Shown here piece by piece: positions 2,370 to 45,066 of a DNA stretch of 64,000 nucleotides (position 1 is its first letter; the number at the start of each line of letters is the position of its first letter). Source of the stretch: Siphonodentalium dalli (lineage: Eukaryota > Mollusca > Scaphopoda > Gadilida > Siphonodentaliidae); NCBI GenBank assembly GCA_032622095.1, contig CP136067.1:195202052-195266051 (forward strand). Direction: 5' to 3'. A model generated the notes under the pieces. It was not told where the DNA came from. It searched no databases and saw only the letters and a list, made by a program, of their open reading frames with translations. Position numbers and translations under genes: made by a program.

Positions 2370-2625
2370 ATGCCAAATAATGCAGTGTTTTCGGCTGTGG
2401 TCGGTATAATGACTATCAGTTAGGTATAATTCTACATTCATTTCCAAGCAATATTCGTTTACGTGACATTTGGCGGGATTTCTGTGGGAAACCATGCAGT
2501 TGCGCAAAATCAGAAACTATTAAAATGGTTGACGACGAAATCGTTCAGAATTTGTTCCGTCGACTTCGAAAAAATGCGTTTTGAGCCCAAGTTGAATGCA
2601 CTTGACCCCATTGCAATAGTGCATG
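2370..2625 (+). pseudogene. Broken THAP-type zinc-finger fragment
   Basis: A THAP-like module can be read only by changing frame. From 2381 one frame gives a CSVFGCGR-type start followed by HSFPSNIRLRDIWRDFCGK, matching the C-x-V-x-G-C, H-x-F-P and R-x-x-W landmarks of THAP DNA-binding domains. That frame stops at about 2582. A second frame gives RICSVDFEKMRFEPK from 2547, matching the closing I-C-S-x-H-F motif, but the zinc-ligand His is Asp. The start codon at 2371 is also out of frame with the Cys that follows. THAP domains occur in P-element-type transposases and in host DNA-binding proteins; which this came from cannot be told. The frame changes and lost ligand make it a pseudogene or a mis-sequenced fragment. 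Confidence 0.6.
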
Positions 2626-10073: not shown

Positions 10074-11865
10074 AGTCGAGTTTTTTTCCAAAACTCGACT
10101 TATAGTTTGATGAGGGACGGTGGGCGGGCGGGCGGGTGGCGGACAGGCTGGTGGGCGGGGCGACGTGTTTTGCTTATAACTCAACCGTTTATTGACGGAT
10201 TTTTTGGTGTGTGAGTACATATCCATGCACGTAAGTTGCAGACAAAAAAATCGGGTTCATCCGCACATTTATTACAGAGTTATGGCCCTTTGCCATTTTT
10301 CACTGATTTTAGGCTCGTTAGCGCAACAACTTCAACAAACGTTATCTGATTCGATTGAAATTTGGGATATAGGTGTCTCCCAAGAATATCTCGGACGAGT
10401 TCGAAAACCGGCCTGGTCCGATAAAATTTGATAGAGTTATGGCCCTTAATTAGTCATTTTTCACGAATTTTCAGCTCGTTAGCGCGATAACTTCAACAAA
10501 CGTTATCCGATTTGATTGAAATTTGGTATATAGGTGTCTCCCAAGAATATCTCGGACGAGTTCGAAAACCGGCCTGGTCCGATAAAATTTGATAGAGTTA
10601 TGGCCATTAATTAGTCATTTTTCACGAATTTTCAGCTCGTTAGCGCGATAACTTCAACAAACGTTATCCGATTTGATTGAAATTTGGTATATAGGTGACT
10701 AGGTGTCTCCCAAGAATATCTCGGATGAGTTCGAAAACCGGCCTGGTCCGATAAAATTTGATAGAGTTATGGCCATTAATTAGTCATTTTTCACGAATTT
10801 TCAGCTTGTTAGCGCGATAACTTCAACAAACGTTATCCGATTTGATTGAAATTTGGTAAATAGGTGTCTCCCAAGAATATCTCGGACGAGTTCGAAAACC
10901 GGCCTGGTCCGATAAAATTTGATAGAGTTATGGCCCTTAATTAGTCATTTTTCACGAATTTTCAGCTTGTTAGCGAGATAACTTCAACAAACGTTATCCG
11001 ATTTCATTGAAATTTGGTATATAGGTGTCTCCCAAGAATATCTCGGTCGAGTTCGAAAACCGGCCTGGTCCGATAAAATTTGATAGAGTTATGGCCCTTA
11101 ATTAGTCATTTTTCACGAATTTTGAGCTCGTTAGCGCGATAACTTCAACAAACGTTATCCGATTTGATTGAAATTTGGTATATAGGTGTCTCCCAAGAAT
11201 ATCTCGGTCGAGTTCGAAAACCGGCCAGGTCCGATAAAATTTGATAGAGTTATGGCCCTTAATTAGTCATTTTTTCACAAATTTTCAGCTCGTAAGCGCG
11301 ATAATTTAACAAACATCATCCTATTTGATTGAAATTTTGATATATAGGTGTCTCCCAAGAATACCTCGGACGAGTTAGAAAACCGGCCCGGTCCGATAAA
11401 ATTTGATAGTTAAGGTCCTTGAGTAGTCATTTTGTACGAATTTTGAGCTCGTTAGCGCGATAACTTCAACAAACGTCATCCGATTCAACTAAAATTTGGT
11501 ATAAGTGTCGTCCAATAATATCCTGGACGAGTTCGAAAACCAGCCTGGCCCAATAAAATTTGATAGAGTTATGGCCCTTAATTAGTCATTTTTCGTGAAT
11601 TTTTACCTCGTTAGCGCGATAACTTCAACAAACGTCCTCCGATTTGTTTAAAATTTGGAATAGACATACTTGCCAAGAATATTTCGGACGAGTTCGAAAA
11701 CCAGCCTGGCCCGATAAAATTTGATAGAGTTATGGCCCTTAATTAGTCATTTTTCGATTTTACCTATTAATTAGTCTACCGATACTGATGCACACCAATT
11801 GGCGGTAGCCACCGGCAGTAAGCCACCGAAAACGAGACACAGCATCTCTGATGCCTCCTCTTGTT
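10074..11865. mobile_element. Pearl/Helentron-like element with ~161-bp core array
   Basis: Starts with a short hairpin (AGTCGAGTTTTT and AAAACTCGACT), followed by a (GGGC)n-type GC-rich stretch. Then comes a tandem array of about 161-169-bp units marked by GGCCCTTAATTAGTCATTTT near 10442, 10602, 10771, 10932, 11093, 11255, 11578 and 11739. It ends in a unique tail finishing at about CATCTCTGATGCCTCCTCTT. Another copy at 43922-45066 shares both ends. A hairpin, a simple repeat, a ~160-bp tandem core and a fixed tail recall the pearl elements of bivalves (Helentron-associated, non-autonomous). Assignment is by architecture only. Confidence 0.7.
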
Positions 11866-24338: not shown

Positions 24339-24703
24339 AAAATATTTAGAGAAGAATAATCTCTGGGACAGTAGCAGGAAGCTGCTTCAAACAAAGGAAG
24401 GTGGCGTATCAATTCCTATCAAGGATAAACAATCTGAGCCCTTCATCAATGAACTTGGTGGAATTGTTTTTGACGGAATCCTAATTCCTGCAGTTTTGGG
24501 TGAGGCTGATGACATACCTTCGAAGAAATCGAGAATCAAACCACCGAATGAGCAGTTACAACATGAGGTTCTAACTGCTGCTAAACGCACGGATCTTGAC
24601 GTTGATGAGATATCACACGAGATTCCCCAGTGCTGGGAGAGACACGGTGATCTCGTGTTGTTCAACAGTGTAGCATTTCAGTCGGAAAAGTGGCTAACTT
24701 TGG
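24339..24703 (+). CDS. TYW2: TYW2 exon (first recognisable)
   Basis: Opens after CTTACAG with the last base of a split Arg codon (RKYLEKNNLWDSSRK) and closes inside a Gly codon before GTTAGT. It covers the N-terminal domain up to CWERHGDLVLFNSVAF, a block conserved in TYW2 proteins. An in-frame ATG upstream at 24277 is inside the miniature element and is not taken as the start. Confidence 0.93.
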
Positions 24704-27700
24704 GTTAGTTATTCTCCTGTATATCAGTAGTCATTTTTCTGACCATGGTCAGGCCTGCAAATAGTGGGTCTGTCATTTGCAGAATGAGGTCTCCTAAGGC
24801 TGAATTTAGTGATGCTATCCCGCACATGGGCTAGCATCACCAAATTCACCCCATGGGGACCGACGTATCTATAGTTACTTTTTCCCTTCTGTTTAGTTTC
24901 TATACATGTATCCCCTAATTTGCAGAAGATAAAATGCATAATCAAGGTGACTAATAGGTGAACATCACCAACTTCTTTCAACTGGGGAACTTTAATCTGA
25001 TCCTAGGTCTCCTATAGTAGTTGAGTCTTAAGCAGATTGATGTTCCCAGAGGGTGAATTTGGTGATGCTAGCCTGCATTGTGTAGGGCCCTGCGAACCTT
25101 AAATTTTAGGTCGAACCGAACCTTGAAACCGAATCACTGTCTCGGTTTCGAATCGAACCTCGAAACCAAACACCGACCTTGTTGTCGTAGACTCATGATA
25201 GAGTGGACAATCAGAACTGTTAGTGGACATTATTATAGTAAAATCAACGGTTATTTAAGTATTGCCCATCTACACTATAAGATAATTACATAACAAAGAA
25301 TTATTTTATATTGGAGATGTGTAGTCTGTTTATTCGTCCGCGACTTTGGTTTCAAATCTACGCATTTTGTTTCTGATCTTTTCTGTTTTTGCAAGTGACT
25401 TACGATTTTTAATCGGAAAAGTAACACACGTAGGGTCCCAAATAAGCACTGTGCAGGGGGGATTTTCTCTTGTAAATAAATTAAGTACCTGTACGGTAGG
25501 CTTGCCGCGATTTTGGGAATAATCGAACAATCGTCAGTGGTGCCGATTAAAATCGACTTTTTTAGTTCAAATAACAATGCATATTATACAACAACACAAG
25601 AACGCTGGCATACAGCGTATTTGCCAAGAACTTATCTCAACTTAAGAGGCAATATTTTGCACCGTATTTCCAGCACTATTCTAACCCAGAAACCCACCCA
25701 CGCAAACATTTGTGACAATGTAACTTTCAGTTGCGGCGTCTTTTGAGGTCGGGCCGACAGTAATCTAGTTCCGTCTTGGTTTCACGTCACGCGGTTTTTC
25801 ATTTAATATGCCGATGCATGTGTATACTCCGCGGACAAACTCGTATTCTTGAATAAGAATATTGACAATCGAATGAATTGAGAGATTCCCGACTTTGAAT
25901 TAAGGCACGATCCCGAACTTCAAATTCAATTAATGCGCGATCCCAAATTCACGAACAGTTAATTCAAGGAAGATAACCCAGGCCCGGACATGCGCACTGC
26001 TAACTGTAACTGGGCTATTTGTTTAATCAAAATGATTTCTGAATCTGCTTAGTGCTTACATAAAGTTCATAAACTACGCGTAATTATTTTGTTTTTATTG
26101 TTTAGGCCAAAACGAAGAATACCTGTGTTTAGGGTAACCCGCCCACCCCTACTCAAAACCTGCCGCCAAATTCCATTTTATCGTTTTTCAAAAATTTCCT
26201 CCGACTTCATTTTATTTTTTTGTAATTAGGAATTCGCGACTACGGAATTACATGTAGCTTAAACAAGTAAACCATTTCCTTGCAAACATCGTCAATTCAC
26301 GAAAAACGGAAGTGCCGCCATTGTTGTTGGTTAAGTATATTCGTATTACCTCGTCATTGTTCGGCAAACCTCGTCGATTTCTCGAAAGCGGAAACCAGAA
26401 AACACGCGATACTTGTGCCGGAATATGTATTAACTAGCAAATCGAAAGTAACCGGATATTTTGCCGATTGCACATGTCGATTGAATATGGCGGAAACACT
26501 TCCGTGTGCGGATAGATCCTGAGTTTTAGCTATTAAACTTCACAAATGCGTTCATATGAATCAGAATAGAAACATCATGGCGCCTGTCAACTATAGCACA
26601 GATATGTTGTCGTGCGTGAACCGGTACCACACGGATTCTGAACTGACAGAAAAGGACATAGTAATAAAATGTCGGATTAAATATAATTCTGACACTTTTG
26701 AAATCGACCCAAAGCTCAAAATTCCATTATTATAGTTTATCCACCTCTCACCGCATCCACCCTGAAAATTATAAGCCTGGCGTAACATGGAGTCTGTATA
26801 CCCATGCAGTAGGAGAGGTATGTGCCTGGTAGAACTTAATTTTTTCCTAGTAGAACTATTTCTCATTAAATATTCATTAGTTCTACAGAAAGCCGGACCC
26901 GATGAATCAACATCTTCTGTGTCGCCCTGATCCGAATGCAACAGTCATAGGGTAATCAATGCACATATATTGTTCTTGGTGCTTACTTTGTTTTACATGT
27001 GTTAATGCCACCACCGCTTTACATATTGATTATGTTATGTACGTCACATTGGCGTTGCCGCATGTATGTGCCATTTCCAATGGAGGAACTCTTGTTAAAT
27101 TCACCTTCTGAGTTGAATATTTCACAAAATTTCTTAGGATTCGAGTCGGTGGATAAACAAAATATCATAAGTGTTTTGTGTGGGAAATTGAAAAGTAATA
27201 TGTCCACTCGTAGGATTTGGCCTGTAATATCCGAGCTTCAGCGTGAACATAAACCATTTAATTTCCAACACTAGACACTTATTCTATATATAATATCATT
27301 TAATATCACGCTGTATACATGTCATTGAACTTCTGCAACACCATTAAACTTATTAAAGCTACCATGACATTGATTAGTGTGACAATGACTTGCCCAAGCT
27401 ATATACGAGTGACATTGGCAGACGATTAGAAGGCACGAATACTTAAATACTATTCCCCGTGAAAAATAAAATGAAAAAATAAAATAAAATGAAGTATCGC
27501 CCGCCCGCCCCTGTTTTTTTCCCCTCATGTTACCCTAAACTCAGGTATTCTTCCTTTTGGCCTTAATAGAGGCATTTGAATTTATATGGGAGCAAATTCT
27601 CAGAACTAATGCCCTTCATTTCCGATGTGCGGTGCCTGTAAAACGGGAGTTATACTTACCATCTTACACTTACCAGACACACCTCTTAATAGTCTCTTTT

Positions 27701-30700
27701 TTGGCATCTATTTACTACAAATTAAATCTCTATTTGAGATTTAATTTCATGGGTTGAAAAATTGATTAATCGTCGATTATAGCCACTGATTAATCGATTT
27801 TGAAAATCCAAAATCGCGGCAAGCCTACTGTACGGTATATTATTATTGTAATGTTGACACTCGGTAACTATTAACAGACAGCTAAATTGTAGCAAGAAAC
27901 CAAAGCACTCGACCGTCAATCTATAACTGCAACAACACACAACAAAGATCAAAGTGTGCTGACGTCGTGTTGTAGCAATTAAGTGTCGCAGTCACAAGAC
28001 AAAGCACATCAGGTTACATAATCATGTCAATCATTTATGCTAATAAACAATGACCACACCCTCTCCTCACTGTGATTGGTTGAATCCAATTGTTGACAAT
28101 AATCATAACTTGTTGTCTCGTTAGTTAGGTATAATTATGTCTATTAGTAAAATTATATGGAGAATAAAACAAACTCTGACGACAGACTGAAATAGAACTC
28201 CAGAAATGTTATAGTTTGACTAATTAATTATCACGAATTTGACATGTCCGACCAGACCGTTTAGCGGGAATGGAATCAAGTTATTATGCCAAAAGACCTC
28301 TTCAATGAAATATCACCCAGTTACCCCACCCGAGTAATGATCAAATTAATTATGTCCAATGTAAATAATGTAAACATAAAATCATAGTATCACACAGTTG
28401 TGTGTAAACCAATTAATATACTGTATATAATCAATAAACAATTCCTAGTTCGCAAAACTAAAGAAAGGGTTCGATATAAACGAATCCCGTCTAAGGTTTC
28501 GAACCGGACCGAATCATCACGGCGGTTTCGAATTGAACCGAACCTCGAACGGTTCGCAGGGGACTAGCATTGTGGGATAGCGTCACTGAATTCACCCTCT
28601 GGGGACCTCAGTTTGCAAATGACAGACGCACTATTTGCAGTCTTAAATTCTTCGTCTACACCAAGTTCATCTAGGTGCTTGTTCTTCTGTTCCGAATTTT
28701 CAAATTGTATATCAGGTATATGAGTTCTGTTAAATGTCCTTGAACATTGAATTTTCTTTGTCTACATGTTCATCATATCAAGACTGGTGAGTTTTGGCCA
28801 AATGTTCTTGATTCAAGAATTTGTTCAAAGTTTTTTTTATGCTGCTTGAATTGAGAACTGCAAGAAATAGATTGCAATGTTTTTTGACAGTAGGGCTACT
28901 GTAGGATGTTATCGGAAATAGTATAACAGTAAGTAGCCAAATAGAAGGTGAGAAATCATGTGAGATATTGTATAATAAGAGGATATTACTTGGTCTGTTT
29001 GATATTAGGCCCAATATCAGCCCAAGGTAACCTCGTATCAGCCTGAGACCGAAGGTCAAAAGCTGATGAGGTAACCGGGGTATGATATTAGGCCAATAAG
29101 GTTGCCACGACTGAGTTTTCAGAATCGACTTATCGACTGTTATAGTCGACGTTTAGTCAATTAATCATTCATATATGCGGCCTATATTACACCAGGTAAA
29201 CAAGTGGTAAATGCGAAATTACAATGACTACTTTACATCCAGTCTGAACAGAGATATAAACTGTCAAGTCAGCACGCTTGTTATTCTGAGGCCCCCGCTG
29301 TCATCGGCCACCTAAACTCAAATTTGCGCTGCCGGTAAACGCCCTCCTCGTCGCTATTCCTGCAGATGAGAAATTAAAAAAATATCTGTCCAGTCAATAA
29401 ATGTTCCCCGTGAAATGCATGATGCATCTCAGTGTCAATTGAAAGCGTGTAGAATTGTCACATACTTATTGAAAAAGGACTATAGTTAGTTTTACTGAGA
29501 ATCTCATGGTGTATCAATTACGTCACCTGACATATATAGCACTTAGTTTATTTTCACAGGCTTCGGTGTGTGCACCCGCTGATTGTTCTTTTAGTTTTGT
29601 TATTCAAAGTGCATGCAGCACATCGCATCTTACAGCGCGGTAGGGGGGCACTAATAAGTGATGACACAAACTTGTTACTGAATGACTGTCTATTAACTTT
29701 GAACATTGCATGTCCTGCGAACTAAGACTGAACTTTTTACAGTATTAAATTTGAAAAATGAAACCTAGATGCAGTCTGTTGCACGTCGACTATTTTGGCA
29801 ATGATGGCTAATTGCCAATCCATTGGAACAGATTACAGATTCACAGTTAAACATAATTTATAAACAATGGCAAGGCCGCATCACGACTTCAAAGGCAAAG
29901 GAAGCCGCTGGCCCGCCACGGACTGTGATAACATGTCGCACACCGAATTCTTTGAAGACAAAGGAAGCCGCATCAGGAGTGGCGAGAGAACAGGCTGTCG
30001 GGTGGTAAATTGTGCTACATATACTGTTAACTTTTACTTCCAGGCATGGCATTTGTGCATAGTACTGCATTTTTACATACACAACCATACTCCCCTCCCC
30101 TTGGGTGATTAGTCAACGAAAGTAAATAACCGTCGACTACCGCACCTGTCGAAGGTTAGTAAAAAATTAATCGAATATTCGTGGCAAGCCTAAGGCCGAT
30201 ATCAAACCAACCAAATGATATCCTATTTTAATAATTAATTAGATCGTCTTAGTAATAGTGTAATATCGACAACTCTTTCAAATGAGTGACGTAAAAAAAA
30301 TCTATGACTACACATTATTTACCATTCAGATAGAGCTACGGTATGTCTTAAAACCATATTACTTGGATTTATGATGTTATAAAATGATATTACTCGGATT
30401 GGTAATGTCGTAAAATGATATTTCTCGGTTTAAGGGCAAATAGAAGCGATATTCATCTAGTTTGTTAGCAAGGAGTTCTGGGAAAAAATGTCATATCTAA
30501 TTAATAAAATTATATTTATTAAATGCCTATTACAGGAGATGAATTGTGGTTAGTGGTCACCCGAGTTTTGAATTGTAAGAGAGTAGCAAGGAAATCAGCC
30601 ATTAGTTTGGATTCATTCAGATCACCTAATGTTGAGTTGATGTATGGAGACCACGGGTGGGTGGAACATGTCGACAACAAGATTAGGTAGGTACATATGA

Positions 30701-33700
30701 AAATATATATATTGGAAAATGTACATAATATTTACCAATCTTGGGATAAATCACAAGAAATATATAGAGGCTCTCCAACTAATGTTGAGATATAAGATTT
30801 TATGAAATGAGTTTGATAAATTTGATTCACAACGTGTCGTATAGTTTAAGGTTATCATTGTACATTAATGTGTTGGATCAATTAAAAATGGTTTCAATGT
30901 TTAAAGGGGTACTGTACGCCATTTTCATTAAATTTCCGGTGACAACAATGATCTAATATCGATAATATAGAGAAACATAAGTAATTTGAGTCGAAGATGT
31001 ATTCTGTAAACGCTCAGGTTAATAGGCTATCTTAACATTTAATAATTTAAAAGTTAATAATTTGATATAAATTGAATTTATGACTGGAGCCATAAAATGG
31101 CGTCAATTAAATTACGAATTACCGTAATCAAAAACAGTAATTGAGGGATACTGGATTTTTAAACCGATCGCACACACGATCGCTTAAAATATTATGATGA
31201 TACGGGGAGAACACTCAAGCCACTCACTGACTAGCGACGATACAATAACTTAAATGATTATATGGGACTAGTATGCATATAATATAACTTTTATTTGATT
31301 CATTTGGTTGAAAACTTTACAAAAATTACTCGACAACGACAATTTGTATTTTTGCATTCCTGTAAATTTGTCATCCGTAACATGACTTCGTACTCAACAG
31401 ACTTTCAAATAATGGAAAAATTGTTACCTTATTCTCCGACTCGGAGACTATAGAAACCAAAAACAACATTTGGCGTACAGTACCCCTTTAACGATATTGT
31501 ATCATTATTAATGACAATTCGTTGTGTCTCTGGCATCTTTGTTCAGAATACAATTGACAATCAAATAAATAATGAGTCGATAAGGCCTGTTTTATACGTC
31601 GAGCCAGACACGGGTCGCGCCAGCCTAATTAGAGTGAAAATGACAAAGTCCAAGATAGCGCGACTGGAGCACGACGTATAAAACCAACTGGCGTGTCAGA
31701 ATTTCTCTGGCACGACCCGACGTGCTACACGTGGAATGATTTTTTGTGTTTTGTTTTTGTTTTTAATATTTATTTTCATTCCAAAACTGGTATATACAGC
31801 GGGGTTGCTGCTGATGGGTATTTCTTTGGGATCGGATAGATAATACAATTCAGAATATGGCCTGCTGCCATTCACCAGAAAGCTATCGATGAGAGCTTTC
31901 CGATGAAAGGCAACAAGCCATAACGACTAAATCATGATAAATTTCACGTTATTCTGCTAAAGGGTCATATACTTCGGGCATTGCTATATTTATTGTAGGG
32001 ATGGGTGGACACATCGTGATACGGTTATTCCCGATACTTGTATCATATCGCAAGCTGTAGTATCGCTACAAACTGGTCGGTGTATAAGTTGCAACTTTTT
32101 AACATAATTTTCTCCTCAAATGTATATAAGACATTCATTTTATCCTCTGTCCATCAGCCCCACCAATGTTTTTATTTAATATTTTTATGACAATCCAATT
32201 CTGTAAGCAGGTCAACTAAGGTCAACTTAAACACCTGCAAATGGAGCAGACAGCCCCAATGTATGTTCTGCGACTCAGTCAAAAGTGAAAACTGTTAACG
32301 ATATACCAGTACAATTTACAGCAGGTGTTATAACTGTGTTTACGATATACCAGTATAATTTACAGGTGTTATAACTGTGTTTACGATATACCAGTACAAT
32401 TTACAGGTGTTGTAACTGTGTTTACGATATACCAGTATAATTTACAGGTGTTATAACTGTGTTTACGATATACCAGTATAATTTACAGGTGTTATAACTG
32501 TGTTTACGATATACCAGTATAATTTACAGGTGTTATAACTGTGTTTACGATATACCAGTATAATTTACAGCAGGTGTTATAACTGTGTTTACGATATACC
32601 AGTATAATTTACAGCAGGTGTTATAACTGTGTTTACGATATACCGGTACAATTTACAGCAGGTGTTACACTGTGTTTACGATATACCGGTACAATTTACA
32701 GCAGGTGTTAACTTTACCCCAAAATGAGCAAGTATGACACTTATAAATACTGACAATAAACACAATGTATCAATTAGGAAGTAAAGTATAATTATACTGA
32801 AACAACAGTGTCAATTAATATTAATATACAACTATAACTGCATGACAAATATTATATTTTGTCTGTCCCTCGGGGAGGGGGCGGAACTGAAAACAGCAAT
32901 TATGATTTTATGAATTGCTGTTAAATGAATGAGTTTATTCAATAATACTAGTATGCATGAATATATGAGTACAATTTTATATAGTATACATTATACATGT
33001 ATATAATTAAGGATGAGTTCTACAAGGCGATGATACAAATGTATTATGAATCATACCACTTGAACCCGAATGCCATCCCACCACCCCCACTGCTTCTATG
33101 TGGTAGCTTGGCAAGTCTACACTGACCACAGGTCAATGAGGTTAAGGGGCAACAGACCGACATCCAGGTGCAAGAGCTGGAGATATACATTGTAATGTAA
33201 GAACAGGATGATCGGATTATACCAAAATGAAATTCATAAGAGGCAGTGTAAAATTCGCACTCGTCCCTCTTGTCAAAATGATCATGGTCACTGTAATAGT
33301 CGATTCAATATTGAACTTTTTAAAGGTATATTTAGAACCTTTCCCATCTCAGTTAAATTATGGGCATCTGAAAGTTTAACTGGACATAGGTCTATCCCAA
33401 AATGACATTTTGTTTGAGAAAAACCCGACTTAAAATTACACCTGTCTTCTGAATTGCGAGAGCAAATAAGTGCTCTCGCTGTGTTTTCCTCTTGGGAAGG
33501 ACTGGAACAATGGTGTGTTTTAGAATTCGATTTGACTTTGAGTCTTCATCACTCATGCGTTACTGTCATTGAGATTGACATTGTCACCAACACCGAGCAT
33601 CTATAGACTGGAGCAAATCCGAAAATGGTTTTAATTTAACCAATTTAAAAGTTCGCTCCAGTCTACCACAACACTTGTGAACAAAGCACAACTGTGTTGC

Positions 33701-36700
33701 ATTCCAAAGTTACCGTGGACGCGAAACTACAGCTTCCAGTATTATGAAAAACTGGTCGGTAATAATGTACCTATATTACGCGTATATCAGTCTGTTAATC
33801 GGTCTCTTTGCGCATTCCTATTTACGTCGGACTCGGGTCGGATCACAGGAAATAATTATTTGAGTTTGTTGGTTTTTGTAGGGCTGATCGATTTACTGGA
33901 AACAAGTATTTTTTTTAGGCCTATTCCATAGTAGTACTGAATAAACGGCATTTTCTACTTTTGGTTTAATTTACTCTTCTTTCATCAGGTACAATTATGA
34001 CATCACCAAATGCATGTTTAGTATCGGTAATATCACAGAGAAGTTGAGGGTAGCCAGATTTGACTGCAGTGACGAGGTTGTGTTGGATCTTTATGCTGGT
34101 ATGTGTTTTTATATTACTCATTTCTGACAATATAATTTGTCTAAAAGTTTTTAGTCATGACTTTTATAATGTCTGATATTTGGGTTATCTGTTTATAATC
34201 TTCATCGGCAAAAAATTGCTGCTGTTCTGATAGTGTTCAGATTATTTCCAGCAATTGGTTCGCCTTTTTTGCGAGAGTTGATGATAACTTTAGTTTTAGT
34301 TATCTGATTGTTTTCAAATTTTTTATATGGATTACCCACATGAAAATACAGGTCAGGTTCGAATTTGGGTTCGGTCCGCCCATCTTTGCCAGAGTGGAGT
34401 TTTTTTTTAATAAGTAGGTCATTCAGTCACATTCAGCGGTTTATTTTACAAAGCCCCGCTCCAAAATGAAGCCACCGTATTAACCCTTTACCCAACAAAA
34501 CGGCCAAAAACGCCCAAATAAAGCTTCAACAGCCTAAAATATCTTCGGTCTGTCTCAATAACACCATACGACTATGGATATCATTGGAACCGGTTCATTG
34601 ACCACATTGTGATGGTTACAGTTATGCCCTGTGCCAATGCATTCTCTTATATATGCGAGTCGACCATAGGTCGCCTCGCATATATAAGAGAATGCATTGG
34701 CCTAAAAAAATATTTCTAATATGTGTTAAGCCAATGCATTCTCTTATATATGCGAGGCGACCTATGGTCGACTCGCATATATAAGAGAATGCATTGGCAC
34801 AGGGCCGTTCTGTTGGGTAAAGGGTTAAGGGATACTGGTTGAGCGGCCTTTTATTTAACTCTAGTAGGTGACCATTCAACAGCTCACCAATAATTCAATT
34901 TTTTTCAGGTATTGGTTACTTCACTCTACCTTATTTGGTGCATGCCAGAGCCGCCTACGTACATGCGTGTGAGTGGAATCCAGATGCTGTGATAGCCCTG
35001 AAGCAGAACCTTAAGTTGAACTCATGTGAGGATCGCTGCACGATATACGAGGGAGACAATAGAAAAGTTAGTTATCACCATGTTTTGAATAGACCTATAA
35101 ATTAATTGGATATTCAGATTCTGTTACTAGTAATGGTGGCAAATAGCAGCTGACAAAAGCATGCACTACCACACATCTTGCAAAAGCGACATTCAGCGAC
35201 AAGCAATTTCGGTTAATTGAAACTGGAAGAATAGATTTTATAGGATATATCAGTTGCGTTTTGGTTTTGAAATAAAACCAAAAGAAAACTGAGAAACCGT
35301 AAAACCGCACATTTGACAGGTGGGTTATCATCAAGTTACCTGATACTGTAAATGGAATTCATAGAAATGTGGTTCTGCTTGCATGGTATGACTTGACTAT
35401 CAAAGTCCTTCAATAAAACTCTTTGTATAATTATTCCAACTTGCATATATAAGAGAAGCACTGACACATGATCTTTAATGCTGCATCAGCACTGCTCCCG
35501 TCATGAAAGGGTTAACTGGAGAATAGAAAAGAGAATTTTTTTTTAAGTTCTGCACTAAACATTTAGCACTTTTTATAGCTTGGGGACTCCATCAATAATG
35601 GTGTATTAAATTAACCCTTATTCCAACGTATCGTCTTTTGACGTCTTTTGTTGTAGCGTCCATATCGTCTTTTGATGTCTTTAATTTTTGCATTTTCAAC
35701 ACTCGGATTTGAGACTCGAATAAAGAGTAATAATGACAATTTACATTGATTGTGTTTTGTTCTGCTGATGGTTAAGATAATGAAGGGTACATATTAACTC
35801 TTTAACCCTCAATGACGTGATTTGACGTGTCTAACTGGTACCTGTGACTTTACCCGGGACAGCCCTCACTGGTAACGTCAAGGAGGATAACAGGGCGTAA
35901 TTAGCAGCGAATTTGTTGCGCTCGCTTATTGATAATTTTATTAGACATGTTGTTACCGCGAATTTCTTGAACACCGCCGAAATAGGTAACATTTCAATGC
36001 AAATTGTATCCGTTAATCCAAAACTTATTATCAGCTAAATTTTCATTGTGTGAGAATCACGCCTATACAACGGAACTGGTCGTTCTATATCATACAGGAA
36101 TGGATAAAATGTCATTTTTATTTATGCCAAACTTCATCGGAAAAGTTGAGAAAGTCACAAGAAAACGTTGAACAGACGGTTTGTTTAGGGGGAAATCCTT
36201 GTGATGCAGGGAATACACATCCCATCTCCGATTATAATTTAAACTTCTGCAGAGAAAACTGGAAAAATCTAGCTTTAATATCGAGTAAATCATAACATTT
36301 TACGACGTGATCGTTGGTTGCGTCATTTTCAGTTTGTCGCTTTCGCATAACACGTTGTTTATTTATCTGGTGCGATGGTATTACTCGTCTCTTAAATATA
36401 AATAATCCCTACGTTTCCCAATATCAATAAAAATACAAAAAAAATTCAACTTCCTTATTTGGGTTAGGCTCTTGAGTGACTCGATTCTGCTATCACCGAA
36501 TTGGTCCGGCTCTTCCATCAATTATACAGGCTCTTCAAATAACCTGCCGATTGAGCCACTCTTCCGGTTTGCAACATAACACACACACGTGGTTTTAATT
36601 TCTCCACTCATCAAAGTTGAATTAAGAACCGCAAAGTTGGTTCAAACGATATAATTATTCAGAAAGTGGCAACAAGAAATAGATCTTTGGTTTGTTCAGG

Positions 36701-39700
36701 CGGATTTTGGAAACATTAGAAGACAATTTCAGTACCGATACCAGTACGTTGTAATACCTGGGTATGCCGTTGAAAATGGAATAATTATTTGCACCCCCAG
36801 CTGGAATTGAAATAGATTATTCCATACTAAACTGCATTTAGCGATATAAACTTCCCGCTACTTGACCAGAAATCGACAAGGTGTTGATCTGCAACAGTTA
36901 TGTTATGTCACAGTATTCATATTTAATAAAGCATAAAACTCTGAATACACACCGTTAATATAAACGGAAAACTTGCCATGTAAACCAACATGTCAAATCA
37001 CGTCATTGAGGAATAGGTAGCCACGTCATTGAGGGTTACACTAGAAAACTATTTGAGTGTTAAAGAGTTAAATCCTTTCTTCCTTTGCTAGGCTTTAGAT
37101 TTGCAAAATGTTTACTTAGAATACTGTTTTGGCCAACAAAATGAAAACAAACGAAATAGAAACACGTGGTTGTGACGAAGATGAAATTTGTTGTCAGAGA
37201 CGCTTCTTTGTTGATTGCGTTATGCATGGCCGCGAGGGTAATCTATTTAAAATATGACAACTTGAAATTGATATTTATATTGGATTATGTATTATTTCTT
37301 TAATAGGTGGTGATTTTATATTTCCAAATAGTGCAATATGAAAATTTTTCCCAGTCCTAATTAAATTGACCATAGCTAAGCAAAATCTCAGCGTAATAGT
37401 TGTGGAACTGGCCATTGGGATGTTTTTCCTGTCGAGTTCCATTATGATTGTCACTTCAGCCGTGATTAAAGATTTTTATAATAATTTTTTTTTTAATGGA
37501 CTAAAATTATAATGAAAGCACATATTTCCACCTTGCCTTCCTAAATATTACAAAATGTTGACAGAGAGTATGTACTCAGTCTCGTGTTGGCTGACAAAAT
37601 GAAAACAAATGAAACAGAAACACGTGGTTCACTGGTTGCGAATTTTCGACGAAGACGAAATTTGTCTCAATATTTAATTTAGGTGAACTTGTTGTGAAAC
37701 ATATTCATTAAGTGTCACAATTGTTGTTTAATTTGAGAACTCGAACATTGCAATTCCAAATTGATGACTCAAAGTGGATCTTTCTGCTTTTATTGCACAA
37801 ATTTACTCTGCGAAATCAGGTTATGTCGGAGCATCGGAATATTATATCCTGTTGTAAGTAACTACGGACGCACCACCCCGTTGTTGTGCTATCGGCGGGA
37901 TTCTGAACACATAATTAATTAAAACTTTTTTATATATATTATCTACAAATTTAGTATAATAAATTGATGAGATATTACTTTTATATATCCATCTGTTCAA
38001 GATTTCAAATATACCGCGCAAAAGACCATCGACCCTGATCGACCGAGAAAGAAATCAATAAAAAAAGTAAATATCTCCTGGTTTGACATCAAGTCAGCCC
38101 AATGCGAGTGCTTCTAAATAAAGGCGAGTTTACAGTTGGCATGCAAATATCTCAAATTCATCTTGGGAAGCTTCTTTGTGTGTGTGCATATATTATATAA
38201 TTACCGAGTATAAAGTGATAGGGTACTTATATCAAGCAATATCGATAAAACAAAGAATATTCCAAGCAGCACATTCGAGCACCTGCTGGCGAGGTCTTAG
38301 TACTCTTACGGCTAAGTTAGCCCACTGCCATTTTGAACAATTCGCGCTCGTTTTTTGTCATCTAATTAGCATCAATGGGGAAACTCCACACCTAAACTTT
38401 AGCCAATGAAATCAGTTCACACTTCTAATCATTGATGTCATTGGTTGTCAATGAAAACATTCATAGAATCAGCAAAAAGTGACCTTTGAACATGTGGTTT
38501 TTGCACGAAAATTGACAAACTTTCACAAAGCAACGTGACGTAATTGATAATAATTTGCGCTTTTATTGGAAGTCTTTTTACGACTTTTGTCAAATCATGG
38601 TTTATATGATTAATTCACATCAAATATAAAGACATTTGGTTTAATTATTTTATTTATAATACGCTTTTTGTTTTAAAAATCATGAATTATTATTTTTTCA
38701 ATCAGGACAGGAGTCCGTGGGTAAACAAACTTAAAGGACATACTCGCATAGACATACCATAAATTTGCATAAAATGTCATTTTTGTACTCGCATGTGTGA
38801 TAAAATGAAGATAAACAGTTGTTTATGGGCACATATTTAGTTTGTTTACTGGTTTATGTTTCCATTATCGTATTCACAGATGACACTAGTCACTTAAGTG
38901 AGAGCATGTTTGTTGTTGCATATCTGATGATACACATGGTACATATACATGTGGCCAGTGTGGGGAAACACCCAATGATATTATAACGTCAAATACCTTT
39001 TGGCTAACGTAATTACCTTCATACCTGGTGACGTTGGCTATATGACGTGGTTTAACTACAGGTGCTATTGGGAAAAGGGTTAAGCGCCTGTATCAATGTC
39101 ATTGGATCTCAATTCATTTAAATCTACATATATAAAAAAAAAATTGGGATTTTTCTCCCAGAAATTGATGCAGAAGTGTAATAAATAAATGGAGTAATCA
39201 ATTAGTTCCGATAATTACGTTCAATAATTCACTCGAGGCAAGAGACGTTTGGGTAAGAAGCTTGTGCGCTAACGTGCACTCGTTTCTTACTGACTTCTCT
39301 TGCCTCTCGTGAATTATTTAACGTAATTATCGGAACCAATTGATTACTCTATATATAATCACTACAACTGGTATTATTAACTACAGATGGGCAACTCATT
39401 GAACTACCTTAATAAATTTGAATGTCTCATTTTGGGACTTGATTGAGCAAAAATTAAGTTGAGAATTAGTTATCGCGAGACCTGCATTTATAAAACTTTG
39501 GCATGACCTGTTATTCTTTTACAGCATTTTAATTTTAGATAACCTCCAGAATGGACGTTCGTCTCAAATTTCTAGGCCTGTGGTAACTCCGTACTCAGGT
39601 GGATATGATAATCGTGTTAGTTTTTCAAAATTTTTATTTAAAAAAAAAAAAGAGTTCAATCTAAGGAAAACAAATTCCAAAAATATATTTAAATTACTGT

Positions 39701-40978
39701 GAAAATATCCTCTAAGTGCACAAAAGGGTCTAAGATTAAAAGCGCATAAAGGGGTGGCCCTAGCGAGGGGCCCTAGCGCATGCAGGGGCCTATGGCCTTC
39801 GACGCTGGGGGCCTGTTTCAGCTGGTTTGTTATAAATTCTTTTTCAGATCTGTCCTAGAAATGTTGCTGATCGGGTTAATCTAGGACTTATACCGAGTTC
39901 TGAAGATGGTTGGAGATCAGCGTGTGAAGCATTAAAGTCAGATACTGGAGGATTTCTTCACATTCATGCGAACATATCTTCTAAACCAGATATACTGGGT
40001 CATTCACCATCGGAAGTCACATCAACTAAACAAGATATACTGGGTCATTCGCCGTCAGAAGCCACATCAATTAAACATGATATACTGGGTCATTCACCAT
40101 CGGAAGTCACATCAACTAAACAAGATATACGGGGTCATTCACCATCAGAAGCCACATCAACTGAACAAAATATACTGGGTCATTCACCATCGGAAGTCAC
40201 ATCAACTAAACAAGATATACTGGGCCATTCACCATCGGAAGCCACATCAACTAAAGCAGATATACTGGGTCATTCACCATCGGAAGCCACATCAACTGAA
40301 CAAGATATACTGGGTCATTCACCATCGGAAGTCACATCAACTAAACAAGATATACTGGGTCATTCACCATCGGAAGTCACATCAACTAAACAAGATATAC
40401 TGGGTCATTCACCATCGGAAGTCACATCAACTAAACAAGATATACTGGGTCATTCACTATCGGAAGCCACATCAACTAAAGCAGATATACTGGGTCATTC
40501 ACCATCGGAAGCCACATCAACTGAACAAGATACACTGGGTCATTCACCATCGGAAGTCACATCAACTAAACAAGATACACTGGGTCATTCACCATCGGAA
40601 GTCACATCAACTAAACAAGATATACTGGGCCATTCACCATCGGAAGCCACATCAACTAAATCAGATCATAGACAGATTCCCTCTCCTTCAGAAATGAATA
40701 GACCAGTAACTCGGTACCAATGCTCTGCAATGGATATAAGATGTGAAGAAGAGATGACTCGGCAAGATAAAAGCACATCTGACTTGCACTCCAAACAGGC
40801 ATGTTGGTCAGGCTGGGCTGACCAGACTTGTGCAGTGATATGTCAGATGCTAATGGAAATTCACAGCGAAGAGTGGACTACAGAAGTCGTTCATATAGAG
40901 CATGTGAAATCCTACGCGCCTCATATCGACCATGTTGTTGTTGATGTATGCTGCAGAAAATCAATCGGAGTTACCTAA
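24339..40978 (+). CDS. TYW2: TYW2, tRNA-Phe wybutosine aminocarboxypropyltransferase (five exons, 5' end missing)
   Basis: Joined exons 24339-24703, 30536-30686, 33989-34098, 34909-35066 and 39848-40978 read in one frame with GT/AG borders. TYW2/TRMT12 transfers the 3-amino-3-carboxypropyl group of S-adenosylmethionine to the tricyclic base at position 37 of tRNA-Phe during wybutosine synthesis. Landmarks seen: CWERHGDLVLF, GDHGWVEHVDN, MFSIGNITEKLRVA, the SAM-binding DLYAGIGYFTLPYLVHA (split across exons), ACEWNPDAVIALKQN, GDNRK, NVADRVNLGLIPSSEDGW, GGFLHIHANI and VKSYAPHIDHVVVD. The visible part encodes about 638 residues, against roughly 450 for the whole human protein. The excess is fifteen 15-residue repeats in the last exon. 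The first exon, expected to encode a short N-terminus ending just before RKYLEKNNLWD, was not found. All catalytic-domain motifs look intact, so the gene is probably functional. Confidence 0.97.
25497..27827. mobile_element. hAT-like element nested in the previous one, duplication CTGTACGG
   Basis: Ends TAGGCTTGCCGCGATTTTGG and CAAAATCGCGGCAAGCCTA. CTGTACGG lies at 25489-25496 and 27828-27835. The related end TTGCCACGA/TCGTGGCAAGCCTA appears at 29098-30192, so this is a family. Confidence 0.9.
26101..27566. mobile_element. Innermost nested element, ~40-bp inverted ends
   Basis: TTTAGGCCAAAACGAAGAAT at the left and ATTCTTCCTTTTGGCCTTAA at the right continue as inverted copies through ACCTG and the TTTAGGGTAAC block. 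Both are followed by C-rich stretches with CGCCC. Superfamily unclear. Internal open frames (for example 26280-26522 and 26999-27274) match nothing I recognise. Confidence 0.7.
28979..30222. mobile_element. Palindromic miniature element split by a hAT insertion
   Basis: GGATATTACTTGGTCTGTTT at the left is the approximate complement of the AAACCAACCAAATGATATCC right end. The hAT-like element 29098-30192 lies between the two halves. Confidence 0.65.
29098..30192. mobile_element. hAT-like element, TTGCCACGA ends
   Basis: Left end AAGGTTGCCACGA, right end TCGTGGCAAGCCTA, flanked by AGGCCAAT (29090-29097) and AGGCCGAT (30193-30200), an 8-bp duplication with one change. Contains GTCGAC-rich subterminal sequence. 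Non-coding. Confidence 0.8.
30536..30686 (+). CDS. TYW2: TYW2 exon
   Basis: Acceptor TTACAG, donor AG|GTAGGT. Completes the split Gly and encodes GDELWLVVTRVLNCKRVARK through GDHGWVEHVDNKIR. The ELW, VxRLAKRxxIS-type and GWVEHVDNGIRY-type blocks match the family. Phase 1 in, phase 2 out. Confidence 0.95.
30901..31491. mobile_element. TTAA-flanked element, AAAGGGGTACTG ends
   Basis: TTAAAGGGGTACTGTACGCC at the left and GGCGTACAGTACCCCTTTAA at the right are exact complements. Length 591 bp, no coding region, inside a TYW2 intron. Confidence 0.85.
31577..31690. repeat. Small inverted repeat, TTTTATACGTCG
   Basis: GTTTTATACGTCG and CGACGTATAAAAC bracket about 80 bp. Possible miniature element. 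Confidence 0.5.
31775..31985. mobile_element. Decayed relative of the TACAGTAATGCCC element
   Basis: ATATGGCCTGCTGCCATTCA and GGCAACAAGCCATA around 31855-31925 match the hairpin arms of 58050-58420. The right end reads GGGCATTGCTATA. Arms are strongly diverged, so it is an old copy. Confidence 0.6.
32296..32715. repeat. Minisatellite of 41-44-bp units
   Basis: About ten units containing AACTGTGTTTACGATATACC and AGTATAATTTACAGGTGTTA. Length variants carry GCAG before GTGTT. Lies in a TYW2 intron. Confidence 0.93.
33244..33504. mobile_element. CAGTCCTTCCCA miniature element, left-truncated
   Basis: Shares AAAATTCGCACTCGTCCCTC, GATTCAATATTGAAC and the intact right end CTTGGGAAGGACTG with the other copies. 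The left inverted end is missing. Confidence 0.75.
33989..34098 (+). CDS. TYW2: TYW2 exon
   Basis: Acceptor TTCATCAG, donor CTG|GTATGT. Encodes RYNYDITKCMFSIGNITEK and the start of the SAM-binding motif, DLYAG, whose Gly codon is split with the next exon. Confidence 0.96.
34480..34828. mobile_element. TTAA miniature element with two large hairpins
   Basis: Ends TTAACCCTTTACCCAACA and TGTTGGGTAAAGGGTTAA. Inside are two consecutive perfect or near-perfect palindromes of about 70-80 bp built from GCCAATGCATTCTCTTATAT and ATGCGAG(T/G)CGACC(A/T)(T/A)(A/G)GGTCG. Further copies at 46448-46883 and 48741-49141. Intron of TYW2. Confidence 0.9.
34909..35066 (+). CDS. TYW2: TYW2 exon with SAM-binding core
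   Basis: Acceptor TTTTTCAG, donor AAA|GTTAGT. Encodes GIGYFTLPYLVHARAAYVHA, CEWNPDAVIALKQN and CTIYEGDNRK, the Rossmann-fold core that binds S-adenosylmethionine. A TTAA hairpin element ends 80 bp upstream of this exon. Confidence 0.97.
35794..37071. mobile_element. TTAA-flanked element, ACGTCATTGAGG ends
   Basis: Left end TTAACTCTTTAACCCTCAAT then GACGTGATTTGACGTG. The right side has AAATCACGTCATTGAGG, a second CACGTCATTGAGGGTTA and finally GTGTTAAAGAGTTAA. Length 1278 bp, no convincing coding region. It may lie inside a larger, poorly supported TTAA element with ends near 35611 and 39083. Confidence 0.7.
37072..39191. other. TYW2 intron sequence with a dispersed duplicate
   Basis: A block with CAAAATGAAAACAAACGAAA and AGAAACACGTGGTT near 37136-37195 recurs near 37595-37665. 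Nothing else recognised; no exon. Confidence 0.45.
39192..39349. mobile_element. Palindromic miniature element (foldback)
   Basis: GAGTAATCAATTAGTTCCGA at the left and TCGGAACCAATTGATTACTC at the right. The inversion continues through TTACGTT, AATAATTCAC and GAGGCAAGAGA to a short central loop. About 158 bp. Confidence 0.85.
39848..40978 (+). CDS. TYW2: TYW2 last exon with in-frame 45-bp minisatellite
   Basis: Acceptor CTTTTTCAG, phase 0. Starts ICPRNVADRVNLGLIPSSED and ends with TTEVVHIEHVKSYAPHIDHV, VVDVCCRKSIGVT and a TAA at 40976-40978. Between GGFLHIHANISSKP and this C-terminal block lie fifteen 15-residue repeats (39989-40663), then a non-repeated linker, DHRQIPSPSEMNRPVTRYQC onward. 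The conserved TYW2 blocks on both sides in the same frame show that the repeat is translated. A 243-codon open frame in the +1 register over the same bases is a by-product of a 45-bp unit lacking stops. Confidence 0.96.
   Translation: MCPRNVADRVNLGLIPSSEDGWRSACEALKSDTGGFLHIHANISSKPDILGHSPSEVTSTKQDILGHSPSEATSIKHDILGHSPSEVTSTKQDIRGHSPSEATSTEQNILGHSPSEVTSTKQDILGHSPSEATSTKADILGHSPSEATSTEQDILGHSPSEVTSTKQDILGHSPSEVTSTKQDILGHSPSEVTSTKQDILGHSLSEATSTKADILGHSPSEATSTEQDTLGHSPSEVTSTKQDTLGHSPSEVTSTKQDILGHSPSEATSTKSDHRQIPSPSEMNRPVTRYQCSAMDIRCEEEMTRQDKSTSDLHSKQACWSGWADQTCAVICQMLMEIHSEEWTTEVVHIEHVKSYAPHIDHVVVDVCCRKSIGVT
39989..40663 (+). repeat. Coding minisatellite, 15 x 45 bp
   Basis: Fifteen units of exactly 45 bp, consensus peptide DILGHSPSEVTSTKQ. 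Two main unit types differ at Val/Ala (GTC/GCC) and at the last positions (TKQ, TEQ, TKA). Single variants include DIRG (unit 4), N at position 1 (unit 5), HSLSE (unit 11) and DTLG (units 13 and 14). Units 8-10 look identical and units 6-7 match units 11-12 in pattern, which suggests recent internal expansion. Confidence 0.97.
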
Positions 40979-41050: not shown

Positions 41051-43240
41051 AGCTCAACTTTACTTTGTAAAGTTTGAGCTATTGCCATGGCTTGGTATCC
41101 GTCGTGCGTGTGTGTGTGTATGTGTGTGCGTGATTCGTCAACAATTTCCTTTAGCACGGGCTACAGTTCGTACCTTTGGTCCGATTATTATGAAATTTGT
41201 CATGGATGTTGACATTGACATGTAGATGGGAATGAGTCATTTTGGGGTCATTCGGCCAGCGGCCATCTTGGATTTCAAAATTCAATCCATTAGCACGGGC
41301 TACAGGCCGTACTGTTCGTCTTATTGTCATGAAATTTGTCATGGATGTTAATATTGACATGTAGATGGGAACAAGTAATTTTGGGGTCATTCGGCCAAAA
41401 AACATGGCCGCCAGCAGCCATCTTGGATTTATGACTAAATTCTTTAGCACAGGCTACAGGTCGTACCTTTAGTCTGATCATCATGAAATTTGTCAGGGAT
41501 GTTAATATTGACATGTAGATGGGAACGAGTCATTTTGGGTTCATTCAGCCAAAAAACATGGCTGCAGCAGCCATCTTGGATTTTACTCTTTGTATGACTA
41601 AATCCTTTAGCACGGGCTACAGGTCGTACCTTTAGTCTGATCATCATAAAATTTGTCATGGATGTTAACAATGACATGTAGATGGGAACGAGTCATTTTG
41701 GGGTCATTCGTCCGAAAAACATGGCCGTGAGCGGCCATCTTGGATTTCAAAATTCAATTCATTAGCACGGGCTACAGGTCGTACTGTTCGTCTGATCATC
41801 ATGAAATTTGTCATGGATGTTAATATTGACATGTAGATGGGAACGATTAATTTTGGGGTCATTCTGCCAAAAAACATGGCCGCTGGCAGCCATCTTAGAT
41901 TTTACTCTTTGCATGACTAAATAATTTAGCACGGGCTACAGGTCGTACCTTTGGTCAGATCATCATGAAATTTGTCATGGTTGTTAACAATGACATCTAA
42001 ATGGGAACTAGTCATTTTGGGGCCATTCGGCCAAAAAACATGGCCGCCAGCAGCCATCTTGGATTTTACTCTTTGTATGACTAAATCCTTTAGCACGGAC
42101 TACAGGTCGTACCTTGAGTCTGATCATCATGAAATTTTTCATGGCTGTTGAAATTGGAATGTAGATGGGAACGAGTCATTTTGGGGTTATTAGGACAAAA
42201 AACATGGCCGCCTGTGGCCATCTTTGATTTCAAAATTTAATCCATTAGCACGGGCCACAGGTCGTACTGTTCGCCTGATCATCATGAAATTTGTCATGGA
42301 TGTTAATATTGACATGTAGATGGGAACGAGTAATTTTGGGGTCATTCGTCCAAAAAACATGGCCGCCAGCAGCCATCTTGGATTTTACTCTTTGTATGAC
42401 TAAATTCTTTAGCACGGGCTACAGGTCGTACCTTTAGTCTGATCATCATGAAATTTGTCATGGATGTTAATATTGACATGTAGATGGGAACGAGTCATTT
42501 TGGGTTCATTCAGCCAAAAAACATGGCTGTAGCAGCCATCTTGGATTTTACTCTTTGTATGACTAAATCCTTTAGCACGGGCTACAGGTCGTACCTTTAG
42601 TCTGATAATCATAAAATTTGTCATGGATGTTAACAATGACATGTAGATGGGAATGAGTCATTTTGGGGTCATTCGGCCGAAAAACATGGCCACCAGTGGC
42701 CATCTTGGATTTCAAAATTCAATCCATTAGCACGGGCTACATGTCGTACTGTTCATCTGATCATCATGACATTTGCCGTGGGTGTTAATATTGACTTGTA
42801 GATGGGAACGAGTAATTTTGGGGTCATTCGGCCAAAAAACATGGCTGCCGGCAGTCATCTTAGATTTTACTCTTTGTATGACTAAATTCTTTAGCACGGG
42901 CTACAGGTCGTACCTTTAGTCTGATCATCAAAAAATTTGTCATGGCTGTTGAAATTGACATGTAGATGGGAACTAGTCATTTTGGGGTTATTCAGCATTA
43001 AAACATGGCTGCCAGCGGCCATTTTGGATTCTACTCTTTGCATGACTAAAGCTATCAAATGTTTTTGAATTGTTGGAAAACATAGCCGCCAGCAACCATC
43101 TTAGATTTTACTTTTATATACATGTATATATATATATCTCTTCATGTTGATAAACTAGTATTAGACATTCAACTTTCCACATTCCTAATCACTCCATCGA
43201 CAGTAACACATTAAATTATTCCCTTTCCAAGTTGAGCTAC
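41051..43240. mobile_element. Pearl/Helentron-like element, AGCTCAACTTTAC hairpin family
   Basis: Starts with a hairpin (AGCTCAACTTTACT and AGTAAAGTTTGAGCT in approximate inverse), followed by (GT)n. It then has about twelve units of 140-168 bp marked by TTTAGCACGGGCTACAGGTC, GATCATCATGAAATTTGTCA and CATGGCCGCCAGCAGCCATC. The tail reaches CCAAGTTGAGCTACA. The parallel minus-strand open frames are repeats of one shadow peptide and not a gene. Begins about 70 bp after the TYW2 stop codon, probably within or next to its 3' untranslated region. Confidence 0.7.
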
Positions 43241-43921: not shown

Positions 43922-45066
43922 AGTCGAGTTTTTTTCCAAAACTCGACTTATAGTTTGATGAGGGACGGTGGGCGGACGGGCGGGCGGGCAGCGTGTTTTG
44001 CTTATAACTCAACCGTTTATTGATGGATTAAACAAAATTTTGGTGTGTGAGTACATATCCATGTATGTAAGCTGCAGACACAAAATTGAGTTCGTCCGCA
44101 CATTTATTACAGAGTTATGGCTCTTTGCCATTTTTCACTGATTTTAGGCTCGTTAGCGCAACAACTTCAAAAAACGTTATCTGATTCGATTGAAATTTGG
44201 GATATAGGTGTCTCCCAAGAATATCTCGGACGAGTTCGAAAACCGGCCTGGTCCGATAAAATTTGATAGAGTTATGGCCCTTAATTAGTCATTTTTCACG
44301 AATTTTCAGCTCGTTAGCTCGATAACTTCAACAAACGTTATCCGATTTGATTGAAATTTGGTATATAGGTGTCTCCCAAGAATATCTCGGTCGATTTCGA
44401 AAACCGACCAGGTCCGATAAAATTTGATAGAGTTATGGCCCTTAATTAGTCATTTTTTCACAAATTTTCAGCTCGTTAGCGCGATAATTTAACAAACATC
44501 ATCCTATTTGATTGAAATTTTGATATATAGGTGTCTCCCAAGAATACCTCGGACGAGTTAGAAAACCAGCCCGGTCTGATAAAATTTGATAGAGTTATGG
44601 TCCTTAAGTAGTCATTTTGTACGAATTTTGAGCTCGTTAGCGCGATAACTTCAACAGTCATCCGATTCAACTAAAATTTGGTATATAAGTGTCTTCCAAT
44701 AATATCCTGGACGAGTTCGAAAACCAGCCTGGCCCAATAAAATTTGATAGAGTTATGGCCCTTAATTAGTCATTTTTCGTGAATATTAACCGATTATATT
44801 AATTTTTGGTGTGTGACTTGCTTCGTACAATATCTCGAAAGAGTGCGAAAACTGGGTTTCTCCGAACTTTTTCCCCTGAGTTATGCCCCTTAGTTTGTGA
44901 ATTCTTCGCGATTTTGAGGCCGTTAGCGCGATAACTTGAACAAATAAATATTAACCGATTTTACCTATTAATTAGTCTACCGATACTGATGCACACCAAT
45001 TGGCGGTAGCCACCGGCGGTAAGCCACCGAAAACGAGACACAGCATCTCTGATGCCACCTCTTGTT
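43922..45066. mobile_element. Pearl/Helentron-like element, second copy of the 10074 family
   Basis: Same AGTCGAGTTTTT hairpin, GGGC-rich stretch, ~161-bp core units (fewer than in the first copy) and same tail (CACCAATTGGCGGTAGCCAC to GATGCCACCTCTTGTT). Supplies independent support for the element's ends. Confidence 0.75.

Follow-up and report, generated by a model that had tools for sequence, protein, structure and literature searches.

A TYW2 gene with a tandem array in its last coding exon

The stretch of DNA analysed here (the window) comprises 64,000 nucleotides of contig CP136067.1 of the scaphopod mollusc Siphonodentalium dalli. Its plus strand carries a gene for TYW2, a tRNA-modifying enzyme, and the last coding exon found for this gene contains a minisatellite of 15 units of 45 bp. 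Five exons were placed within 24339-40978; they are separated by four GT-AG introns with matching phases and leave 637 residues open. The features are listed below, with PH0793, the TYW2 protein of P. horikoshii, as reference.

24339-24703, plus strand: first TYW2 exon found, N-terminal region with WERHGDLVLF; acceptor ttacag, donor gttagt, phase joining the next exon
30536-30686, plus strand: TYW2 exon, GDELWLVV...HVDNKI; GT-AG borders and phase
33989-34098, plus strand: TYW2 exon, YNYDITKCMFS...DLYAG, start of the S-adenosylmethionine (SAM) motif; PF02475 at E 2.7e-4, GT-AG borders and phase
34909-35066, plus strand: TYW2 exon, IGYFTLPYL...EGDNRK; PF02475 at E 7.7e-12, GT-AG borders and phase
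39848-40978, plus strand: last TYW2 coding exon found, carrying the array; single open frame, acceptor tttcag, TAA at 40976-40978
39959-39976, plus strand: HIHANI block, the strand that precedes the loop; aligned to HYHN in PH0793
39989-40663, plus strand: minisatellite, 15 units of 45 bp, consensus DILGHSPSEVTSTKQ; from the sequence and Tandem Repeats Finder
40169-40618, plus strand: tandem duplication of a 225-bp block, units 5-9 (40169-40393) and units 10-14 (40394-40618); from sequence comparison
40664-40720, plus strand: start of the remaining loop, DHRQIPSPSE..., with a strong acceptor-like site at 40678-40691
40904-40933, plus strand: VKSYAPHIDH block, C-terminal strand; opposite IKRYAPGVWH of PH0793

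The gene had been called TYW2 in a first-pass annotation made from the letters alone, and sequence comparisons support this assignment. The five-exon product matches PH0793 (3k6r, E 3.2e-31; 3a25, E 4.3e-31) and the TYW2 protein of M. jannaschii (3a27, E 2.2e-26) better than Trm5b (E 3e-13). It contains the Pfam families TRM5-TYW2_MTfase (PF02475, E 1.4e-30, 106.9 bits for a cut-off of 28) and TYW2_N_2 (E 2.8e-12), and it scores 120.5 bits with the Taw2 model and 65.2 with Trm5b, both far below the curated cut-offs of 550 and 600, respectively. The first exon found gives a weak match to TYW2_N (E 6.3e-5, 23.6 bits for a cut-off of 27.8). Glycine 274 of the gene model is the equivalent of G199 of PH0793, a residue called critical in a review (PMC7761594). 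Thus, the protein resembles TYW2/Taw2, the tRNA-Phe 4-demethylwyosine (imG-14) 3-amino-3-carboxypropyl (acp) transferase described there, in overall sequence, in this glycine and in the C-terminal K..PH..H..D pattern. Domains of the partner enzymes are also encoded in the genome: TYW1 (PF08608, E 5.3e-17) in one exon, and TYW3 (PF02676, E 1.0e-11) in one exon above the cut-off and a second one below.

Genome-wide, PF02475 yielded six matches at E values up to 1. Two are exons of the TYW2 gene of the window, one on C3 is nearest Trm5b (51.8 bits, versus 38.2 for PH0793), and one on C2 is trimethylguanosine synthase. Among these four, no second TYW2 was seen; the other two matches are below the cut-off. 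An exon with the start codon was looked for and not found. At the other end of the gene, a strong donor-like site (gtgagt after 40993) lies 15 bases past the stop codon, and the 3' untranslated region thus likely contains an intron.

Organization of the array

The 15 units follow one another head-to-tail and in register, each 45 bp long and without any indel. The first-pass annotation had described them as exact; their number, length and position stand, but only five are identical to the consensus (codons GAT ATA CTG GGT CAT TCA CCA TCG GAA GTC ACA TCA ACT AAA CAA). The other ten carry one to six changes each, 29 differences in total, which correspond to 15 distinct changes when each is counted once. 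Tandem Repeats Finder reports the array at 39981-40660 (period 45, 15.1 copies, 92% matches, 0% indels, score 1164). As previously proposed, one open frame runs from HIHANI through all units to VKSYAPHIDH, and the array adds 225 stop-free residues, with unit peptides that include DILGHSPSEVTSTK. With its exon location, a unit longer than about 10 bp and divisible by three, and a single open frame, the array has the sequence features of a coding minisatellite.

The distribution of the variants supports the block duplication suggested in the first-pass annotation. Five of 225 bases distinguish units 5-9 from units 10-14, and a five-unit tandem block equally alike arose in 0.8% of 20,000 random unit orders. 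The offset of five units also gives the lowest mean difference among offsets 1-10; in 6.7% of 20,000 shuffles of the unit order, the best of offsets 1-7 was equally low.

Used as a DNA query against the 2.23-Gb genome, units 1-5 gave no other match in a search that skips very common words, and the protein stretch that follows the array matched only the TYW2 locus. SPSE recurs immediately after the array with different codons, and the joined flanks (ISSKP-DHRQIPSPSE) align locally with the unit (TSTKQ-DILGHSPSE) with a score of 23. Letter shuffles attained this score 26 times in 2000, codon shuffles 39 times in 2000, and pieces of the window 26 times in 2038. The alignment is no more than suggestive of a unit derived from the loop's own sequence.

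Pfam matches on the repeat itself (e.g. DUF4357, PAS_3, RMI1_C) were below curated cut-offs; they come from the repeated sequence and were ignored.

The array lies in a loop of the catalytic domain

To place the insertion we used 14 archaeal proteins, from 16 prokaryote loci found in genome contigs; L036, which runs off its contig, and L039, a short bacterial match, were dropped. All 14 match both the Taw2 and Trm5b models at E 1e-10 or better, and we therefore call them TYW2-like. In L024, the only one viewed in full, Taw2 is the best model, with a score under its curated cut-off. No relatives were found in viral contigs.

The H-x-H motif and the C-terminal PH block are separated by 31 residues in 13 of the 14 archaeal proteins (those of L031 and L034 were read by eye) and by 39 in the remaining one, in contrast with 317 in the TYW2 of the window, or 92 without the array. 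Similarly, two stretches that lie 301 residues apart in the latter are separated by 23 in PH0793. The VKSYAPHIDH stretch scores only -0.2 bits by itself against IKRYAPGVWH of PH0793; its K, both H and the following D are at positions invariant in the 14 archaeal proteins.

In the AlphaFold2 model of L024, built from the 14 sequences (mean predicted local distance difference test (pLDDT) score 81), a strand that includes the H-x-H motif (250-252) spans 243-254; after a turn, the chain continues with a helix (258-267) and another strand (272-283). In a Foldseek search with this model, Trm5 structures came out on top by E value, and the TYW2 structures 3a27 and 3a25 superposed more closely (2.1 and 2.6 Å, respectively). 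The site of the array corresponds to the turn between the first strand and the next helix, and on this model the repeat would lengthen that turn in the catalytic domain. In such a fold, the turns that follow parallel strands point towards the cofactor and substrate. The first-pass annotation had placed the array in a poorly conserved loop, and the lengths agree with this as far as archaeal relatives, the only proteins compared, are concerned.

Composition, constraint and predicted structure

Ser and Thr account for 77 of the 225 residues of the array, which contains 14 Ser-Pro (SP) motifs in its 15 units, no aromatic residue and no Cys. With a net charge of -19 (His not counted), it plots with disordered sequences by the charge-hydropathy rule, for which we used a textbook value not fitted to the host species.

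The 15 distinct changes comprise 11 replacements and 4 silent changes, close to the ~10 to 4 expected without selection; the C to T change at position 43 of unit 15 was counted as a replacement rather than a stop, as that unit has TCA. The ratio is thus near one, and the array shows no overall constraint at the protein level beyond its frame.

Interpretation and alternative explanations

We favour the explanation that this is a protein-coding minisatellite tolerated in a disordered loop of TYW2, translated and without a dedicated function. A short piece of an already long, probably disordered loop would have been multiplied by slippage or unequal exchange, and growth of the array would have included duplication of the 225-bp, five-unit block. 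With a unit length of 45 bp, any gain or loss of units would preserve the frame. Since the loop branches off the catalytic domain in the turn from a strand to the following helix, the number of units would not matter to the fold, and the enzyme would still make its product. The array would form a flexible, acidic tether of 225 residues, and selection would chiefly purge frameshifts and stops. The number of units may then differ between individuals, to which the block duplication in this one assembly points indirectly.

The array is very probably translated. The best evidence for this comes from the reading frame, which continues unchanged from one flank through the array into the other, within a gene whose recovered part is intact. 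Several observations weigh against the favoured explanation or deprive it of support. As the first-pass annotation had stated, no unit carries a stop; nevertheless, given the observed changes, one would find none with a probability of 0.40-0.58, and another forward frame also lacks stops across the whole array, so we rejected stop absence as strong evidence for coding. The frame is also kept through every unit, with no frameshifting indel for 2.1 expected from 12 arrays of the window (P 0.12, Poisson; 0.15, Fisher), and other variants of the test gave P values of 0.06-0.14. We likewise rejected this absence as strong evidence. The 12 arrays were picked by hand from 37 overlapping Tandem Repeats Finder rows, the seven genome arrays of one variant came from a search biased to 15-residue repeats, and events near array ends were left out, one edge indel counted for the TYW2 array being an edge effect. 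As a check of the test, six in-frame arrays of L040, a long open frame elsewhere in the genome, had no frameshifting indel for 40 distinct substitutions, versus 33 for 238 in the window arrays (P 0.012); these are six of its nine arrays, and among the three set aside is one (6333-6592) with 8% indels. Concerning disorder, the best of five AlphaFold2 models of the exon, run as a single sequence, consists of stacked strands with pLDDT of ~70 over the array. The other four have mean pLDDT values of 29-40, and AlphaFold2 reportedly produces spurious beta-solenoids from perfect repeats (PMC11795689); we therefore did not accept the beta-stack as the fold of the array. Lastly, three of four changes in the HSPSE core of the unit are silent, versus 1 of 11 elsewhere (Fisher P 0.033). 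As this region was chosen post hoc, we regard it as a hint of constraint on the core.

The site of 14 nucleotides just before 40692, tccctctccttcag, also counts against translation of the array, as it could end a cryptic or retained intron whose removal would take the array wholly or partly out of the mRNA. Lying 28 bases past the array, it is the strongest acceptor-like site of the exon, and its score of 11.9 exceeds those of the five acceptors of the gene model (5.4-11.5); only three sites on the plus strand of the window reach 11.8. Candidate donors within units, at 39998, 40043, 40088 and 40133, would keep both the frame and HIHANI, and one at 39908 would keep the frame and lose HIHANI. 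However, where an in-frame splice would spare HIHANI and take out most or all of the array, its donor scores 1.2-2.7, whereas the four introns of the gene model have donors at 3.5-8.6; the splice-site weights are textbook values not fitted to the host species. Moreover, by a rough estimate, about 1 non-coding array in 450 would resemble that of TYW2 (open unit, 0.34; absence of a new stop, ~0.46; absence of a frameshift, 0.12; 1/3 each for period and join). We thus consider splicing-out improbable. Two further possibilities appear more remote still. The repeat might have grown in a pseudogene after loss of TYW2 function, in line with the missing start-codon exon; a dying gene is hard to reconcile with 637 stop-free codons, the conserved glycine, intact splice sites, the lack of a second TYW2 among the PF02475 matches examined, and the TYW1 and TYW3 domains of the genome, and this is very unlikely. 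An inflated copy number or a misplaced array in the assembly is scarcely credible for an array of only 675 bp with differing units, when neither units 1-5 as DNA nor the protein stretch after the array gave another match in the genome.

If the array is translated, it might also be selected, with the SPSE units forming a tether that is phosphorylated at multiple sites or binds a partner and so tunes TYW2. The 14 SP motifs, the abundance of Ser and Thr, the silent changes in HSPSE and the recurrence of SPSE in other codons after the array are in keeping with this idea, to which we give a small chance. The ratio of replacement to silent changes matches the expectation without selection, and HSPSE was singled out after inspection. 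Variation between the units looks free of constraint on the protein, and apart from the post hoc hint in HSPSE there is little to support a regulatory phospho-array. A far bolder version, which we regard as a long shot, is that a multiply phosphorylated tether of variable copy number sits on the substrate face of the TYW2 catalytic domain in this lineage. Its copy number or phosphorylation would set how much tRNA-Phe carries full wybutosine, and hence the rate of ribosomal frameshifting at Phe codons, which would differ between individuals.

Repeats elsewhere in the window and the genome

Minisatellites are common in the window according to Tandem Repeats Finder, and they are also found elsewhere in the genome. 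Of eight other places in the genome chosen for their resemblance to the repeat at the protein level, seven contain 45-bp arrays, with 9-71 copies; the search favoured that period. L040 (G000:C3:198570500-198579500) has an open frame from 3451 that continues for 1850 codons until the locus ends. It contains nine tandem arrays, whose periods (78, 30, 36, 12, 45, 99, 15, 45 and 36 bp) are all divisible by three. No Pfam family was identified in the 400 residues of its product that were scanned. It shares in-frame minisatellites with TYW2, two of them with a 45-bp period, but it is only a putative gene with a long, low-complexity product. On the minus strand of L014 (on G000:C4), at 865-3242 of the locus, ~53 copies of a 45-bp unit reading YHCECDQGYEGGSYI are in frame with an EGF-like domain. 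This array may have arisen by runaway amplification of a piece of an EGF exon; its other frames are open too.

Within the window, long inverted repeats in the TYW2 introns (~39215-39340 and 34635-34800) resemble, by eye, small palindromic transposons. Shortly past the TYW2 stop, the region 41255-43050 is composed of ~164-bp units with a higher-order period of 482 bp, and two separate arrays with 161-bp units similar to each other lie at 10276-11755 and 44129-44778 (9.2 and 4.0 copies, respectively). On the minus strand, an open frame at 60116-61090 matches the reverse transcriptase family RVT_1 (E 6.1e-9), and further minus-strand open frames up to 62625 may belong to the same retroelement.

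Relation to known coding repeats and significance

Coding minisatellites are a well-known kind of sequence. A close parallel is the 48-bp variable number tandem repeat (VNTR) in exon 3 of DRD4, located in a cytoplasmic loop (PMC7031506). Both are in-frame minisatellites whose unit length is a multiple of three, and both lie in a loop of a folded protein. The DRD4 repeat, however, belongs to a receptor and has up to 11 copies with demonstrated variation in number, whereas ours belongs to a tRNA-modifying enzyme and has 15 copies in one assembly. Around 1 in 20 human proteins are reported to contain repeats of polymorphic copy number, with an excess of periods divisible by three among human coding repeats and a predominance of units of 2-6 bases (PMC1273636). 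In Candida albicans, 46% of open reading frames reportedly hold repeats, in regions with a median length of 35 bp and up to 5156 bp (PMC6162428). These arrays similarly lie in open frames, but they are mostly short, in contrast with the 675 bp found here in the catalytic domain of a conserved enzyme. In the titles and abstracts searched, a scope that excludes most of the subscription literature, we found no report of a repeat insertion in TYW2 or in a tRNA methyltransferase with low-complexity sequence, or of a coding minisatellite in an enzyme.

The array is a real, in-frame and probably translated minisatellite in a TYW2 loop, notable for its host protein and its size; there is no sign yet of a function for the 225-residue loop. 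TYW2 loss in human cells is reported to raise -1 frameshifting (PMC7456070), so any effect of the array on activity would be measurable. If the repeat is translated, a deeply conserved tRNA-modifying enzyme accommodates 225 repeated residues in one loop of its catalytic domain. The gene would then offer a natural test of the effects of long loops on an enzyme and, if the copy number varies, a natural allele series.

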